Assembly (NCBI GenBank): GCA_011390635.1
Contig: JAABSA010000007.1
Location: forward strand, 1 to 64,000
Length of the DNA stretch: 64,000 bases
Source of the DNA: Desulfotignum sp.
Lineage (GTDB): Bacteria > Desulfobacterota > Desulfobacteria > Desulfobacterales > Desulfobacteraceae
Reading direction: 5' to 3'
Each line of letters starts with the position of its first letter. Position 1 is the stretch's first letter. A program made the translations under genes and the position numbers. The notes below the pieces were generated by a model that saw only the letters and a program-made list of their open reading frames with translations, was not told where the DNA came from and searched no databases. Shown here piece by piece: positions 6,075 to 14,435 of the stretch.

Positions 6075-6202
6075 CTAAAAGCAAAATATCGGGGATGTAA
6101 ATTTTTTGCAAATGAAAAATTGATGATTACCATAGTTGACAGTTTAACTGCTGAAAACACCAGTCCGGCATGAGTATCACCGGGAAAAACAGGAGGAAGT
6201 GT

Positions 6203-8650
6203 ATGGCCCGCAAAAACCTGACCTTGCCCGTAACCGGCATGAGCTGTGCCAATTGTGCCGCCAGTATTGATAAAAACCTGTCCAATATGGCGGGTATTGT
6301 TGATGTCGGTGCCAGTTTTGCTACAGAAGGGGTGCGGGTGACATTTGATTCGGAAAAGACAGATCTGCAAAAAATAATCGCAAAAATCAAGGACCTGGGA
6401 TTTGATGTGCCTGTAGCCGCGGCAGATGTGCCGGTAACGGGCATGAGCTGTGCCAATTGTGCGGCCAGTATTGAAAAAACCTTGAATCACAAGACCGAAG
6501 GCGTGGTGGATGCATCCGTGAACCTGGCATCCGAGCGGGTCAGTATACGCTATATCCGCTCAATGGTAACCCTGGAGGAGATGGGGCGCAACATCAAAGA
6601 CCTGGGATTTGAATTGATCCTGACCGATGATGACACAGATGCCGCTGGTGTGGAAGAGATTGCCCGGAACCGGGAGATCAGGGATCAGACAAGAAAATTT
6701 GTCATCGGAGCTGCTTTTGCCCTGCCCCTGTTCATTTTGAGCATGTCCAGGGATTTTGGTTTGACAGGGGCCTGGAGTCATGCAGCCTTCATGAACTGGT
6801 TCTTTCTGTTTCTTGCCACCCCGGTGCAGTTTTATACGGGGATGGACTATTACATAGGTGCGTATAAGGCATTGAAAAACCGGTCCGCGAACATGGATGT
6901 TCTCATTGCTTTAGGGTCGTCTGTGGCCTATTTTTATTCGCTGGCCATCCTGGTGGTGCCCGCCCTCACAGGGCATGTATACTTTGAAACCGCTGCCGTA
7001 ATCATCGTGTTGATCAAATTCGGAAAACTGCTGGAAGCCAGGACCAAAGGAAAAACCGGGGGTGCCATAAAAAAACTCATGGGCCTTGCCCCGAGAAACG
7101 CCACCCGCATTGAAAACGGAGAAAAAATGGAAGTTCCCATCAGCAGCGTGCAGCAGGGGGATATGCTGCTCATCCGTCCGGGAGAACGCATTCCCGTGGA
7201 CGGTGAGGTGATGGAGGGAAAATCCACAGTGGATGAATCCATGCTCACGGGTGAGCCCATTCCCGTGGCAAAATCCAAAGGCGATATTGTGACCGGAGGT
7301 ACTGTCAATGGAGACGGCCTGCTGCAGATGCAGGCCACCCGCGTGGGAAAGGACACGGTCCTGGCCCAGATCATCCGCATGGTCCAGGAGGCCCAGGGCA
7401 GTAAAGCCCCGATCCAGGCCCTGGCAGACCGGGTGGCAGCGGTGTTTGTGCCGGCGGTCATTATCATCGCCCTGGTCACCTTCGGGATCTGGTGGATGGT
7501 CACGGGTGAATTTGTGCCCTCCATGATCCGCATGGTGGCGGTACTGGTCATTGCCTGTCCCTGCGCTTTGGGGCTTGCCACACCTACCGCCATCATGGCA
7601 GGCACAGGCAAGGGCGCGGAAAACGGGATCCTGTTCAAGCGCAGCCAGGCATTGGAAACAGCTGCCAAACTTACCACCATTGTGCTGGACAAAACCGGTA
7701 CCATCACCCTGGGAAAACCGGATGTAACAGATCTTTTGCCCGCATCCGATGCACAGATCTCTGCGGAAGAGCTGCTGGTTCTGGCAGCCTCTCTGGAACA
7801 GGGATCGGAACATCCCCTTGGCAAGGCAGTGGTACTCAATGCCCAAAAAAAGAAGCTGGTATTAACGGACCCAAAAGAATTTACGGCTTTTCGCGGGGAT
7901 GGTGTGCAGGGGATAATCAACGATCGACACCTTCGGCTGGGCAAACCCGGATGGTTTGAAGAGCGGGTGACCAAAGGTCTGGATAAACAGATCCGGCAGC
8001 TGCAGGACCAGGGCAAAACCGTGATGGTGCTGGTCCGGGAAGACCGGGCACTGGGTCTGGTGTGTGTATCCGACGTGGTCAAGCCCGAATCGAAGCAGGC
8101 CATTGCATCTTTGCAAAAAGAAGGACTGCGGGTGGTGATGCTCACCGGGGATAATGCAGCCACAGCCCGGGCCATCGGCTCCCAGGTGGGGGTGGATGAT
8201 ATTGCGGCCGATGTCCGTCCGGAAGAAAAAGCCGGCAAGATTGCAGAAATACAGCAGACCACCCCCTGGGTAGGCATGGTGGGGGACGGCATCAATGATG
8301 CGCCGGCCCTGGCCAAAGCGGATGTGGGATTTGCCATCGGTACGGGCACGGATGTGGCCATTGAGACCGGGGATGTGATCCTGTCTTCGGGAAAGCTCAC
8401 CGGCATTCCCACGGCCATTGCCATCAGCCGCCGCACCATCGGCACCATCCGCCAGAATCTGTTTCTGGCCTTTGTCTATAATATCGTGCTGATTCCCGTG
8501 GCTGCAGGCGTACTGGCACCTTTTGACATGTTCCCGCAATTTTTGCGCCAGCTGCATCCCATACTGGCGGCCCTGGCCATGGCAGCCTCCAGTATTTCGG
8601 TGGTGAGCAACAGCCTGCGGCTGTATACAGCAGATATAACCCGCAGATAA
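6203..8650 (+). CDS. copA: Copper-translocating P1B-type ATPase with two heavy-metal domains
   Basis: 815 residues from the ATG at 6203, chosen because AGGAGGAAGTGT precedes it; an ATG 33 bases upstream has no such site. Two N-terminal metal-binding domains each carry [11 protein letters not shown] (from about residues 11 and 79). The transmembrane core has the CPC metal motif ([13 protein letters not shown], about 450). The cytoplasmic part has TGEP in the actuator, DKTGTITLG (phosphorylated Asp, about 496), SEHPLG in the nucleotide domain and [16 protein letters not shown] in the hinge. CPC with GMxCxxC domains marks a Cu(I) exporter. The thiol-oxidoreductase gene follows after 13 bases and probably shares its transcript. 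Confidence 0.96.
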
Positions 8651-8663
8651 GAAAGGAGAAAAA

Positions 8664-9278
8664 ATGGACCCAAAACCGGTGCTGGAAATATTTTCCGATT
8701 ATGTCTGACCCTGGTGCTATTTCATTACCGGGCGTATTGAAAAACTGCAGCAAAATGTTGATATACAGATCATATGGCGGGCCTTTCCGTTGCATCCGGA
8801 CACCCCGGAACAGGGGATTTCGCTTGAAGAACTGTTTGCCAAAAAAAGAATGGATGTGGATGTGGACCAGGTGATGGCCCACCTGAAGAAAACCGCTTCC
8901 AAACTGGGCCTTCCCATGGGGGACCGGCGCAAAACCTATAACAGCCGCCTGGCCCAGGAGGTGGGGCTGTGGGCCCAGAGCCAGGGAAAAGGCCATGTAT
9001 TTCACGATGCCGCTTTCCGGGCCTATTTTGTGGACGGCAGAAACCTGGCACAAAAATCCGTACTCATGGGCCTGATACAATCGACAGGCCTGGATTTGGA
9101 TGCCGGAGAAAAGGTCATTGATGACCGGTTGTTTTCCGATGCCGTGGATGCGGACTGGCAATTGTCCGGGCAAAAGCAGGTCACTGCGGTGCCTACCTTT
9201 ATCATGGGCCTGGAAAAACTGGTGGGGGCACAGCCCTATGAAACCCTGGAAAAAATGGTTTCCCGGAACATGGCCTGA
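8664..9278 (+). CDS. FrnE/DsbA-family oxidoreductase, predicted selenoprotein (UxxC)
   Basis: 204 residues if the in-frame TGA at 8706-8708 (codon 15) is read as selenocysteine. AAGGAG stands just before the ATG at 8664. The frame reads EIFSDYV-U-PWCYF, which aligns with the SDYVCPWCY active site of FrnE/HCCA-isomerase-type DsbA proteins, so the TGA replaces exactly the first redox Cys and the second Cys is kept (C18). The rest is a full thioredoxin-fold protein with helical insert and the cis-Pro loop (VTAVPTFIMG). The frame is open to 9278 with normal codon use, arguing against a pseudogene. A hairpin follows the TGA. It should reduce or isomerise disulfides; linkage to copA suggests copper-stress repair. 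Without Sec insertion only a truncated 42-codon-shorter product from 8790 could be made. Confidence 0.85.
8709..8732 (+). promoter_or_regulatory. Putative bacterial SECIS hairpin after UGA
   Basis: Directly after the TGA, CCC (8709-8711) and GGT (8713-8715) can pair with ACC (8727-8729) and GGG (8730-8732), leaving a bulged U at 8712 and an 11-base loop. A bulged U in the upper stem is a feature of the E. coli fdhF SECIS. The loop is somewhat closer to the UGA than in well-studied examples, so the exact fold is uncertain. Confidence 0.4.
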
Positions 9279-9328
9279 GATATTTCAAAGACAATTGTGA
9301 AAACTACCGGGATCTGGTAAACAAACCC

Positions 9329-11032
9329 ATGACTTTTCATCTTGCAGATATCATGGACCTGGAATACCTGCTGGCCCTGGATGAACAGGTGGATACACCG
9401 GAACAAACCCGGGCTGTTGCAGCCCGGGACCGGGATATCTTCCGCCAGCTGGATGCGGCAGATATGTCCGATGCAGACCTGCTTTTGTCCTGGCTGTCAT
9501 TCAGGAAACTGGTTTTTTTCGACCAGGCCGGTCACAAGGGGCAGGCCCGGCTGCCCGGAAGGGTATATGCCGGTCTCTGGCGATGGATGGCCTATGGCCT
9601 GGCTTTTTTCGGGGGCTTGGCCGGTCTGGCCCTTTCCTATACATTTTTGGCCTACCATGGTGTCCGGCCGGTGAATGTGGCCTTGTTTTTATCCATTTTC
9701 ATCCTGGTGCCGGCGGTGTTGTTCCTGGTGACCCTGGCAGGACTGGTGATCCGCAGATTTCGGCGGTCCGGTCCAGGCCATGGCGTTTTTTATACCCTGG
9801 TGTCTGGTTTTTTGTTCAGGATGCTGCCGAGATTGCTGGAAAAGATATGGGCCAGAACCGGAAAAGTTGAGACCGGTAAAGACAAGGCTTTTTTGGATGA
9901 GGTCATTTTTTTTATCAACAGCAAAAAAAATGCCTATGGATTTTTATTTTTTTGGCCCGTTGTGATCCTGGTGTCCGTGTTTGCCCTGTTTTTTTCCTTC
10001 GGGGCCTTGGGGGGCACCCTGTTCCGGGTGGCAGTCAGTGATGTGGCATTCGGCTGGCAGTCCACACTGGCGGCCACCCCTTCTGTGGTGCATGATCTGG
10101 TGTCTTTGGTGTCCTTTCCCTGGGCCGCCTGGGTGCCGGATTATCTTTCCGGTCCCACCCCGGCACAGATCGAAGGGTCCCGGATTATCCTCAAACAGGG
10201 CATCGCTTCTCTGTCCACCGGCGACCTGGTTTCCTGGTGGCCGTTTTTATGCCTTGGCATGGTGTTTTATGCGGTTCTGCCCCGTCTGGTGTTGATCGCA
10301 GGGGCTGTGGCTGCCCAAAGGATGTGCCTGCACCGGTTTGATTTTCACCAGCCGCGATTCCGGCGCCTGCTCGTCAGGATGAAATCGCCGGTCATGGACA
10401 TCGGGTTCACCGAAACATCAGGGGATTTGCATGCGTTCAAACCTGTGCAGCCCCAAGAGCACAGGCCGCGCCAAAAACACCAGGATCACCAGGATCACCT
10501 GCCGGATCATCCAGGGCATGCGATCCATTATACGGCAGATTCAAACGCACAGCCCAGGCAGAATAAGACAGAAAACCAGGTATCCGGCACCGGAGCCGGG
10601 GTGGCCGCCGATATGGTCATCGGCACCCCTGCCGTGGTTCTGGCGCCGGCATCAATCTGGGACAAAGATGCCCTGGACCGGATTTTACAGCTGTTGCGCC
10701 GGCAGTTTTTACTGGATGTTCACACGGTGATTCCCATTGCCCTGGACCCTGATACAGATCCCGGGCTGCTGACACCTGCAATCCTGGATGGCGCAGATCC
10801 TGTGGTTCTGCTCCAGGAGGTATGGCAGCCTCCCATTCGCGGTCTGCTGCATTATCTTGTCCAGCTCAAGCAGGGGGTATTGCATGATAAAAATCTCTGG
10901 GTGCTGTTAACCCGGGCACCGGAAGAGGAAAATCCGGGCGTTGCCGACGGAGATATGGATTTTACGGTCTGGCAGACCAGTGTCGGCAAACTGGGATATC
11001 CGGATATTCTGGTGGAAAGGATACGTCCATGA
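9329..11032 (+). CDS. DUF2868 membrane protein, partner of DUF3482 GTPase
   Basis: 567 residues. The N-terminal third is soluble and acidic, followed by hydrophobic segments at about 88-110, 117-140, 205-232 and 305-330. A cytoplasmic C-terminal part has a hydrophilic His/Gln-rich linker (about 370-420) leading into a Rossmann-like end (VIGTPAVVLAPASIW). This is the DUF2868 layout, a family found next to DUF3482 GTPases, and the neighbour confirms it. The four-base overlap with the next gene implies coupled translation and probably a membrane complex. The biochemical role is unknown. An internal start at 9353 is possible because the ribosome site before 9329 is poor. Confidence 0.75.
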   Translation: MTFHLADIMDLEYLLALDEQVDTPEQTRAVAARDRDIFRQLDAADMSDADLLLSWLSFRKLVFFDQAGHKGQARLPGRVYAGLWRWMAYGLAFFGGLAGLALSYTFLAYHGVRPVNVALFLSIFILVPAVLFLVTLAGLVIRRFRRSGPGHGVFYTLVSGFLFRMLPRLLEKIWARTGKVETGKDKAFLDEVIFFINSKKNAYGFLFFWPVVILVSVFALFFSFGALGGTLFRVAVSDVAFGWQSTLAATPSVVHDLVSLVSFPWAAWVPDYLSGPTPAQIEGSRIILKQGIASLSTGDLVSWWPFLCLGMVFYAVLPRLVLIAGAVAAQRMCLHRFDFHQPRFRRLLVRMKSPVMDIGFTETSGDLHAFKPVQPQEHRPRQKHQDHQDHLPDHPGHAIHYTADSNAQPRQNKTENQVSGTGAGVAADMVIGTPAVVLAPASIWDKDALDRILQLLRRQFLLDVHTVIPIALDPDTDPGLLTPAILDGADPVVLLQEVWQPPIRGLLHYLVQLKQGVLHDKNLWVLLTRAPEEENPGVADGDMDFTVWQTSVGKLGYPDILVERIRP

Positions 11033-12474
11033 CATCAGGGTCCATGACAACAAAACCCATGGCCGTTCCGGAATTTGCCGTACTGGGACATCCCAATGAA
11101 GGCAAGTCCTCTGTGGTATCCACCCTTACCGAGGATGACCAGATCCGGGTCAGCCCTGTTCCCGGAGAAACCACGGTGTGCCGGACCTATACCGTTACAA
11201 TGGATGGCCGGGATATCATCCGGTTTGTGGATACCCCCGGTTTCCAGGTGCCCAGACAGACCCTTGCATGGTTCAGGGCATATGAAGGCGATCCTCATCG
11301 TATCCTGGAGCAGTTTGTCTTGACCCATAAATCTGACCCGTTTTTTGCCGATGAATGTGAGCTTTTCGCACCGGTGGCCGGGGGGGCGGGCATTATTTAT
11401 GTGGTCAACGGGTCCAGGCCGGTGCGGGAAGATGATCTGGCGGAAATGGAGATCCTGCGGCTCACCGGCAGGCCCCGCATGGCTGTCATCAATTCCAAGA
11501 ACAGTGAAAAAGACTATACCAGAGAATGGCGCCGGGAGTTCCGCAAACATTTCAATGCCATCCGGATCTTTAATTCCAACACCGCCAATTTCCATGAGCG
11601 GATCAGTATGCTGGAAAGCCTTACATCCATTGACCAGGAATGGGAACCCATCCTGAAGCAGGTGGTCCGGGCGTTTACACAGGAATGGGAAAAACGCAAC
11701 CGCCTGACCTGTGCCTATATCACCCATGCCATTGAAAAGAGTTTGGTTTTTTCCATATCCAGGACAGTGGATGACATGGCCGACCCGGTCCTGGCCAGGG
11801 AAAATCTGTCCAAAACTTACAGAGAAAAGGTCAGGGAAATTGAAACCTCCCTGTTTCACCATATTCGGTCGCTGTTCAAACACCAGGTGTATGAGGTGTC
11901 TCTTCCGGGATATTCCGTGCTCCAGCATGATCTGTTTGCACAACAGACCTGGGAGCTGCTGGGACTGACCGGAAAGCAGCTGGCCGCTGCCGGCGCCGTT
12001 TTGGGGGGTACCATGGGGATTGTGGCGGACACCGCGGCCCATGGCCTGAGCTTCGGGTTGTTCACCGCCATCGGCGGTATTCTGGGGGCGGGATCTGCGG
12101 TGATGGGCGGCAGGCGCATGGCCCGGCGCAATCTTGCCGGCATCCGTCTGGGCGGTGACCGGATCCGGGTGGGGCCCAATGAAAACCTGCAATTTTTGTA
12201 TATTCTTCTGGACCGGGCCCTGATCTACTATTCCCATATCATTAAACGCCCCCATGGTCGGCGGGATATGGGAAAACCCCCGGCAGGACAGGATGACCCA
12301 ATAGCCAAGCTGGGATTTTCCGCCCGGATGACACCGGCCCAGCGCAGGATATGCGTCCGGTATTTCAGGGCGGTCACCGGCCGCAGACTGATCCGGGATA
12401 AAAAAGCAGAGCTTGCATTTGCCGTGCTGGTGCAGACCCTGCTGGAAGAGATCGCAAAACAGACAATAACGTAA
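11029..12474 (+). CDS. GTPase with DUF3482 domain
   Basis: 481 residues. The N-terminal Era/TrmE-like G domain has G1 GHPNEGKSSVV (about 18-28), G3 DTPG (about 67) and an NSKN motif in place of the usual NKxD. The C-terminal DUF3482 region has a long helical part and two glycine-rich hydrophobic stretches (AAAGAVLGGTMGIVAD and GLFTAIGGILGAGSAVMGGRR, about 320-365) that may insert in membrane. It overlaps the DUF2868 gene by four bases. The family pairing is conserved but its process is unknown; the domain build resembles membrane-remodelling or ion-channel-associated GTPases. The altered G4 could loosen guanine specificity. Confidence 0.82.
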   Translation: MTSGSMTTKPMAVPEFAVLGHPNEGKSSVVSTLTEDDQIRVSPVPGETTVCRTYTVTMDGRDIIRFVDTPGFQVPRQTLAWFRAYEGDPHRILEQFVLTHKSDPFFADECELFAPVAGGAGIIYVVNGSRPVREDDLAEMEILRLTGRPRMAVINSKNSEKDYTREWRREFRKHFNAIRIFNSNTANFHERISMLESLTSIDQEWEPILKQVVRAFTQEWEKRNRLTCAYITHAIEKSLVFSISRTVDDMADPVLARENLSKTYREKVREIETSLFHHIRSLFKHQVYEVSLPGYSVLQHDLFAQQTWELLGLTGKQLAAAGAVLGGTMGIVADTAAHGLSFGLFTAIGGILGAGSAVMGGRRMARRNLAGIRLGGDRIRVGPNENLQFLYILLDRALIYYSHIIKRPHGRRDMGKPPAGQDDPIAKLGFSARMTPAQRRICVRYFRAVTGRRLIRDKKAELAFAVLVQTLLEEIAKQTIT

Positions 12475-12509
12475 GCAAGTTATGTAAAAAAAGGAGGGTA
12501 TGCCAGGCC

Positions 12510-14435
12510 ATGTTAACCCATCTGTTCAGCCCGATTCAAATAGGAAACCTCACCGTGAAAAACCGGCTGATGATGTCTGCCATGAGCATTAATTTCGGGG
12601 TGGATCAACACTGCCATGTGACGGATCAGCTCATTGCGTATTTTGTGGAACGGGCCAGAGGCGGTGCCGGCATGATGCTGGTAGGGGGCGGCAGTGTGCA
12701 CCCCGGTGGCCAGGAACTGCCGGATCTTCCCCAGATGTATGATGATTCCTGTATTCCTGGATTGAAAAACATGGTGGCGCAGGTGAAACCCCATGGGGCA
12801 AAGTTCGGGGTCCAGCTCATGCACGGGGGCCGCCAGTCTTATCTGCCTGAAAAAGTGGCCCCGTCCGCTATTCCTGCTCCGGCTGTGGTGAAAGGCGCGG
12901 TCCGTGCCCTGGAAATCGATGAGATCTCCCTTTTGACGCAATGTTTTGGTGAATCAGCCCGGCGGTGCCGGGAGGCGGGGTTTGACTTCATCGAGATCCA
13001 CGCGGCCCACGGATACCTCATCAACCAGTTCATGTCACCCAATGCCAACATCCGGACCGACCAATATGGCGGCAGCTTTGAAAACAGAACTCGGTTTTTG
13101 TTTGAAATTCTGGCGGATATCCAGAAGAAGGCAGGCAATGATTTTCCCGTGGGTATCCGCATCAATGGCAATGATTATATGGAAAACGGCTGGGATCTGG
13201 CCGACACCCTCAGGCTGGCCCCGCTGCTGCAGGCAGCGGGCGCCGCTTATCTGCATGTGTCCGCCGGGGTGTATGGGTCCACGGAATTGACCATTCCATC
13301 CATGTATACCCCCCAGGGATGTTTTGTGCATCTGGCCGAGGCGGTGAAAAAAACAGTGGATATTGCTGTCATCACCGTGGGCCGGATCAAGGACCCGGCC
13401 CATGCCGACCGGATCATTGGCAGGGGCCGGGCAGACATGGTGGCCCTGGGCCGTTCCTTTCTGGCCGATCCATGGTATCCGGAAAAGGCGAGAACCGGCA
13501 GGACCCATGAGATACGCCCCTGTGTGGGGTGCTGCCTGGGATGCATCCACGCGGTGCTGGCCAAGGAACCAGGGGGGTGTGTGGTGAATCCGGATGTGGG
13601 GCGCGAATATCTGCTTGCAAATGAAACCAGGTCCAGGAAAAAAGCAAAAATACTGGTGGCAGGGGCAGGTCCGGCTGGTCTGGCCGCAGCCAGAGAATTT
13701 GCCCTGGCCGGCCATGATGTCCTGGTGTGTGAGCAGGGCCCGGAATCCGGCGGACTGCTGGGCCTGGCTGCCAAAGCCCCCGGCCGGGGTGAGCTGGCGG
13801 ACATCCTCACGTTTTTCAATCGGGAAATAACGCGCCTCAACGTTGATATCCGTTATCATACCCCGTTGTCCAAAGAACTGCTGGCGCAGGAAAGACCGGA
13901 TCATGTGGTGCTGGCCACAGGGTCCCTGCCGGAAATGCCGGTGATCAAAGGGCTTTTTACCACCCGCATGTCCCTTGTAACCGGTGTGGACCTGCTCATG
14001 GGCAAAGAGATGGCCGGCGACATGGTCATTGTCCTGGGCGGGGGCATGTCCGGCCTGATTGTGGCGGATTTTTTGGCGGACCAGGGAAAAACGGTGGTGG
14101 TGCTGAACCGCAAAAAAAGTTTTGCCGAAGAAATGTCTTCCAATGACCGGTATTACCTTCGGGAACGCCTGAAAACAAACCGGGTCACCCTGTACAAAAA
14201 AGTGGCTGTCCAGGCCTTTACCCCTGATGGGGTGAAATTTACCTCCAACGGGAAAAAAGAGGCACTGCACGGATGGGACACCGTGGTGATTTCCGAAAAA
14301 CACCAGGCAGTGCGAACCGCAAAAATCCTGGAAAAAGAATCCCGGGCGCAGTTCCACCTGATCGGGGATGCAAAAACCCCCCGCCACCTGATGTACTGCA
14401 GCAGCGAGGCACAAGAGCTGGCCCGGTCCATGTGA
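12510..14435 (+). CDS. NADH:flavin oxidoreductase, Old Yellow Enzyme / 2,4-dienoyl-CoA reductase type
   Basis: 641 residues with AGGAGGG upstream. Residues 1-340 form the FMN TIM barrel (LFSPIQIGNLTVKNRL, then EIHAAHGYLINQFMSP and YGGSFENRTRF). A [4Fe-4S] cysteine cluster follows (RPCVGCCLGC plus a later Cys, about 333-355). Residues 370-640 hold an FAD and an NAD(P) Rossmann fold (LVAGAGPAGLAAAREFALAG; IVLGGGMSGLIVADFLADQG). This is the three-domain layout of FadH, trimethylamine dehydrogenase and BaiCD-like enoate reductases. The HAAHGYL segment keeps the barrel's catalytic His region. The substrate could be a dienoyl-CoA, an enoate or an amine; no neighbour decides it. Confidence 0.88.
   Translation: MLTHLFSPIQIGNLTVKNRLMMSAMSINFGVDQHCHVTDQLIAYFVERARGGAGMMLVGGGSVHPGGQELPDLPQMYDDSCIPGLKNMVAQVKPHGAKFGVQLMHGGRQSYLPEKVAPSAIPAPAVVKGAVRALEIDEISLLTQCFGESARRCREAGFDFIEIHAAHGYLINQFMSPNANIRTDQYGGSFENRTRFLFEILADIQKKAGNDFPVGIRINGNDYMENGWDLADTLRLAPLLQAAGAAYLHVSAGVYGSTELTIPSMYTPQGCFVHLAEAVKKTVDIAVITVGRIKDPAHADRIIGRGRADMVALGRSFLADPWYPEKARTGRTHEIRPCVGCCLGCIHAVLAKEPGGCVVNPDVGREYLLANETRSRKKAKILVAGAGPAGLAAAREFALAGHDVLVCEQGPESGGLLGLAAKAPGRGELADILTFFNREITRLNVDIRYHTPLSKELLAQERPDHVVLATGSLPEMPVIKGLFTTRMSLVTGVDLLMGKEMAGDMVIVLGGGMSGLIVADFLADQGKTVVVLNRKKSFAEEMSSNDRYYLRERLKTNRVTLYKKVAVQAFTPDGVKFTSNGKKEALHGWDTVVISEKHQAVRTAKILEKESRAQFHLIGDAKTPRHLMYCSSEAQELARSM

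Follow-up and report, generated by a model that had tools for sequence, protein, structure and literature searches.

The locus and its reading frame

The window, meaning the whole 64,000 nt stretch analyzed here, is positions 1 to 64,000 of contig JAABSA010000007.1 from Desulfotignum sp. (assembly GCA_011390635.1). Within it, a gene for a putative selenocysteine (Sec)-containing oxidoreductase lies directly downstream of a copper ATPase gene. The features of the region are:

6170..8650, + strand: copA-type copper P1B ATPase with two HMA domains (Pfam); its stop lies 13 nt upstream of the Sec-gene ATG
8664..9278, + strand: predicted Sec-containing FrnE/DsbA-like oxidoreductase gene (translation; Pfam DSBA 9.6e-35; best PDB match FrnE 5cp1/5cnw; fold Z 26)
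8706..8708, + strand: in-frame UGA, predicted Sec codon, residue 1 of the UPWC active site (92 of 100 loci; six natural Cys replacements)
8715..8717, + strand: TGC codon of the resolving Cys18 (invariant in alignments)
8721..8741, + strand: bacterial SECIS-type hairpin UUCA-U-UAC cgggc GUA-U-UGAA, within the coding sequence (covariation; synonymous-site suppression)
8729..8733, + strand: apical loop CGGGC, 5 nt, with G at the second position (fits described bacterial SECIS)
9329..11032, + strand: DUF2868 protein, the downstream neighbor (Pfam and NCBIfam)
11029-12474: GTPase, after the DUF2868 gene (Pfam and NCBIfam)
12510-14435: OYE/FadH flavoenzyme, after the GTPase gene (Pfam and NCBIfam)

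The Sec gene begins at ATG 8664, which is preceded by a Shine-Dalgarno-like AAGGAG, and has 204 codons with a single internal TGA, codon 15. A preliminary description of this DNA had proposed that this TGA replaces the first redox Cys of a DsbA-type active site in an otherwise intact frame, and translation confirms it: 189 codons follow before the stop TGA at 9276-9278, and both Cys18 and the cis-Pro loop (AVPTF, P177) are preserved. Reading the TGA as U gives a 204-aa protein that begins MDPKPVLEIFSDYVUPWCYF and has a UPWC motif where DsbA/FrnE proteins have their first active-site Cys. It contains a PF01323 DSBA domain (E 9.6e-35) with a UxxC-type active site, and its redox residues are U15 and C18 only, there being no Cys other than C18 across the frame. 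The sequence 3' of the TGA is under purifying selection (dN 0.12-0.25, dS 0.50-0.80). As the same description had predicted for ordinary gene calling, the earliest start past the TGA in a mechanical ORF list is TTG 8790, which opens a frame of 162 aa. On the minus strand, an antisense ORF at 8427-9284 spans the entire Sec gene, and a simple ORF finder might call that frame instead. A scan of the window for a second selenoprotein gene with a single readthrough TGA, judged by eye, gave no convincing candidate.

Conservation of the UGA and of the hairpin

The in-frame TGA is a shared property of the homologues. For example, a search of same-family genomes found matches in 61 of 86, and in most of these matches, which range from 83% down to 48% in identity to the protein of the window, TGA is the sole internal stop. 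At the class level, 122 of 291 genomes have a homologue at E < 1e-20; 12 of the ~140 matched stretches, fragments included, are without TGA. The relatives that carry a name are Desulfotignum, Desulfobacula, Desulfobacter, Desulfospira, and a Syntrophus MAG. The active-site codon was read base by base at 100 loci, and the U/C pairs that were to be looked for are there: TGA at 92, a Cys codon at six, TGG at one, and TAA at one. Throughout the class, almost every homologue thus retains TGA, even at identities below 50%, and, judged from these alignments, its recurrence at one column is far beyond what chance would produce. Homologues on plasmids are distant ones (<60% identity).

Position 15 was masked for a tree of the homologues, on which the non-U rows require five changes. 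One Cys row, L197, clusters with a U row from the same genome, L196; the U group around them is well supported, but the exact placement of L197 only weakly so. Because of this grouping, the tree suggests that certain Cys forms arose from Sec forms. Three individual loci are of separate interest. L171 (G295 C333:2143-3324) is a close homologue with TGG at the Sec codon; its hairpin stem is kept, with one loop change. L211 (G164 C95:20498-21664) is a distant homologue with TAA at the active-site codon and no hairpin, which could reflect an error, a pseudogene, or something else. L092 (10686-10790; G073 C17) carries a partial second copy of the Sec gene (35 aa at 80% identity), situated ~3 kb away from the intact one.

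The hairpin noted earlier after the TGA is present at 8721-8741, spans +15 to +35 counted from the T of the TGA, and contains a U-U mismatch. Its loop reads CGGG[A/C] in most homologous sequences; a guanosine in a small apical loop is a described trait of bacterial SECIS elements (PMC1088965). Across 51 distinct versions, the stem pairs in 97.5% of cells, and five of the seven pairs show changes on both sides, including U-A to C-G, A-U to G-C, and C-G to A-U. Double-sided cells number 24, versus 3.9 in shuffles, and the observed pairing or covariation was reached in 0 of 500 shuffles, counts that are not probabilities, since the rows are related. Sliding the hairpin partners abolishes the signal, in controls that retain the relatedness. 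Synonymous change is suppressed about five-fold in the hairpin codons (+5 to +12), where diversity is 0.18 of expected versus 0.89 over 111 other columns (permutation p < 1e-5). The six Cys homologues retain 6, 5, 5, 4, 2, and 2 of the seven pairs; the TGG homologue retains all seven. Folding of the single sequence 8700-8765, a check of the kind originally suggested, gave an MFE of unremarkable stability (z -1.0), and an Rfam search returned no SECIS match. Hence, it is the comparative evidence, rather than single-sequence MFE, that makes the predicted hairpin convincing.

Decoding of the UGA

Can the organism make Sec? The genome that contains the window encodes SelA (526 bits), SelB (342 bits), and SelD (370 bits). 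Its selD (L018, G000 C26:12486-13409) carries a UGA of its own, in GAGUAAK, and is itself a selenoprotein gene; the genome therefore has another gene, besides that of the oxidoreductase, that requires Sec. The fourth component that was to be looked for, selC, is present in same-genus relatives, but searches for it in the draft (96.4% complete, 98 contigs) came up empty. An Rfam model search detected no tRNA-Sec above the cut-off in the draft, and a loose DNA pattern for it was uninformative there. ARAGORN confirmed tRNA-Sec in three same-genus genomes (G062, G065, and G072), and the flank next to it is ~80% conserved among them. The gene adjoining tRNA-Sec in G062 is, from a reading of its sequence, what we take to be an M20 peptidase. 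Neither a relative's selC DNA with 3.1 kb of surroundings nor, in a protein search, a close copy of the adjacent peptidase was found in the draft. Because the neighboring peptidase gene is missing along with tRNA-Sec, the absence is probably an assembly gap. Besides tRNA-Sec, G062 has a second tRNA with a UCA anticodon (L071 1501-1592; C1:529912-529999), which scores 55.8 bits to the tRNA-Sec model and is perhaps a tRNA-Sec-like variant.

A TGA is one base away from either Cys codon, and homologues with TGT or TGC exist, so the codon could in principle be a nonsense mutation or a sequencing error in an ordinary Cys gene. The identical TGA in dozens of independently assembled genomes, the purifying selection 3' of it, and the covariation of the hairpin make this vanishingly improbable; conservation has already refuted it. 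It is also very improbable that translation begins past the TGA, at TTG 8790, giving a shorter protein that lacks the active site. The 162-aa frame is open, but the segment it would leave out (8664-8789) is conserved as protein (LEIFSDYxUPWCYFxTG), has normal synonymous change before the TGA, lies behind a ribosome-binding site, and makes the first strand and helix of the predicted fold. There is similarly little chance that a suppressor or a tRNA-Sec-like tRNA inserts another residue, such as Trp or Cys. The TGG codon of L171 and the second UCA-anticodon tRNA in one same-genus genome would fit such decoding, whereas the UGA sits at a redox-site Cys position and is followed by a SECIS-type hairpin, selA, selB, and selD are present, and the Sec gene also uses TGA as an ordinary stop. 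Decoding of UGA-15 as Sec is close to certain, and the original proposal of Sec in a FrnE/DsbA-like protein is strongly supported by the conserved TGA, the covarying SECIS hairpin, and selA/selB/selD.

Fold, neighborhood, and probable function

What kind of enzyme does the gene encode? An AlphaFold2 model of the protein (pLDDT 93.9, pTM 0.89) finds its best solved-structure matches in Deinococcus FrnE (Z 25.6-26.4 over ~200 residues, 28-30% identity), followed by SCO1869 and then by remoter DsbA-fold reductases. The FrnE of D. radiodurans (DR_0659; 5cnw, 5cp1) is the best match both by sequence (E 5e-21) and by fold (Z 26.4, rmsd 2.1 over 203 residues); compared with 5cnw/5coh (Z 26, 29-30% identity), the protein shares the FrnE fold with a CxxC-type site near the N terminus. 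Unlike D. radiodurans FrnE, it has Sec for the first Cys and no C-terminal CX4C, the frame ending at residue 204. That CX4C, present in many FrnE proteins and missing from some, has been proposed to regenerate the active site (PMC8945050). FrnE proteins are predicted to be cytoplasmic, and the D. radiodurans protein is reported to be cadmium-inducible, with disulfide isomerase and insulin-reduction activity (PMC8945050). The 2-hydroxychromene-2-carboxylate isomerases and kappa-class GSTs (2imd, 1r4w) belong to the same wider fold group but are far less similar than FrnE, and the UxxC pair of the Sec protein is as in disulfide oxidoreductases. From the FrnE matches, we infer membership in COG2761. 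The protein opens directly with the DsbA core, and no signal peptide was seen by eye. The gene is almost certainly a true selenoprotein gene, for a cytosolic FrnE-type disulfide oxidoreductase of the UxxC kind that lacks the C-terminal CX4C.

The best overall explanation, to which we give a probability of about 0.88 on sequence and model evidence, is a cytosolic FrnE-type oxidoreductase in which Sec would be the attacking residue; a role as a cytosolic reductase or isomerase is probable. By analogy with Sec insertion as known from bacteria, SelB carrying Sec-tRNA-Sec would bind the hairpin and decode the UGA as Sec. By analogy with the family, the U15 selenolate would attack a substrate disulfide, persulfide, or other thiol adduct, and Cys18 would resolve the mixed selenosulfide. 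Since the protein has no further Cys, an outside reductant would be needed, and the resulting selenenylsulfide may be reduced by an external dithiol such as thioredoxin.

The preliminary description had also read the copA neighbor as a sign of a copper-stress enzyme, which the wider comparison does not support. In this reading, the selenoprotein would be co-transcribed with copA and dedicated to protecting or repairing Cu(I)-damaged thiols. It draws on the 13 nt between the copA stop and the Sec-gene ATG on the same strand, on the sharing of this adjacency with four close relatives, and on DsbA-fold copper-sensitivity proteins, such as ScsC, that rank lower by Z among the fold matches. However, across 40 loci compared, copA sits immediately upstream of the Sec gene in just the window and the four relatives closest to it, and is a few kb off in five more; the available flanks of the remaining loci, some of them short, do not contain it. 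Other same-genus relatives have the Sec gene without adjacent copA, in the genus and family copA is elsewhere absent or several genes off, and in other lineages the Sec gene is conserved amid quite different neighbors. Moreover, Salmonella ScsC has been described as periplasmic, in contrast to a protein without an evident signal peptide. With the adjacency so narrowly distributed, the copper reading carries little weight and a dedicated copper-stress role is unlikely; a general copper role for the gene was rejected on the neighborhood evidence, which yields no common functional partner. The order DUF2868, GTPase, OYE-type flavoenzyme (9329-14435 in the window) is kept in many relatives, more widely than copA.

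A DsbA-like UxxC selenoprotein of COG2761 was reported in 2005 from a Sargasso Sea survey, with nine sequences (PMC1088965), and DsbA-like selenoproteins were listed for some deltaproteobacteria by 2006 (PMC1794560). The family is also listed in a later review (PMC9312934) and, as "DsbA-like protein form 1" (PF01323, UxxC), in a 2026 list (PMC13188914). Calling the enzyme little studied was thus fair for its function, but the DsbA-like UxxC family of COG2761 is a listed one (PMC1088965, PMC13188914). The protein shares with that family (COG2761/PF01323) the DSBA domain, UxxC, and a SECIS hairpin after the UGA, a likeness drawn from published descriptions of the family. The gene is a well-supported addition to a family known since 2005; what is new, as far as the sequence comparisons reach, is the dominance of the Sec form with its hairpin across the Desulfobacteria and the detailed covariation of the SECIS.

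A broader proposal is that the ancestral FrnE-type reductase of the Desulfobacteria was a selenoenzyme, that Sec and a strictly constrained SECIS have been kept in almost every lineage for a distinct selenium-dependent cytosolic reduction in sulfate reducers (disulfide, persulfide, or metal-thiol repair), and that the gene was joined to a copper-export operon in the Desulfotignum clade; this is speculative, and we consider it unlikely. Gene calling that treats UGA as a stop skips such genes or strips them of their active site; annotation may therefore under-represent the redox enzymes of sulfate reducers. With nearly all homologues in the class in the Sec form and natural Cys versions beside them, this family is well suited to asking why a disulfide oxidoreductase of the cytosol would need selenium.
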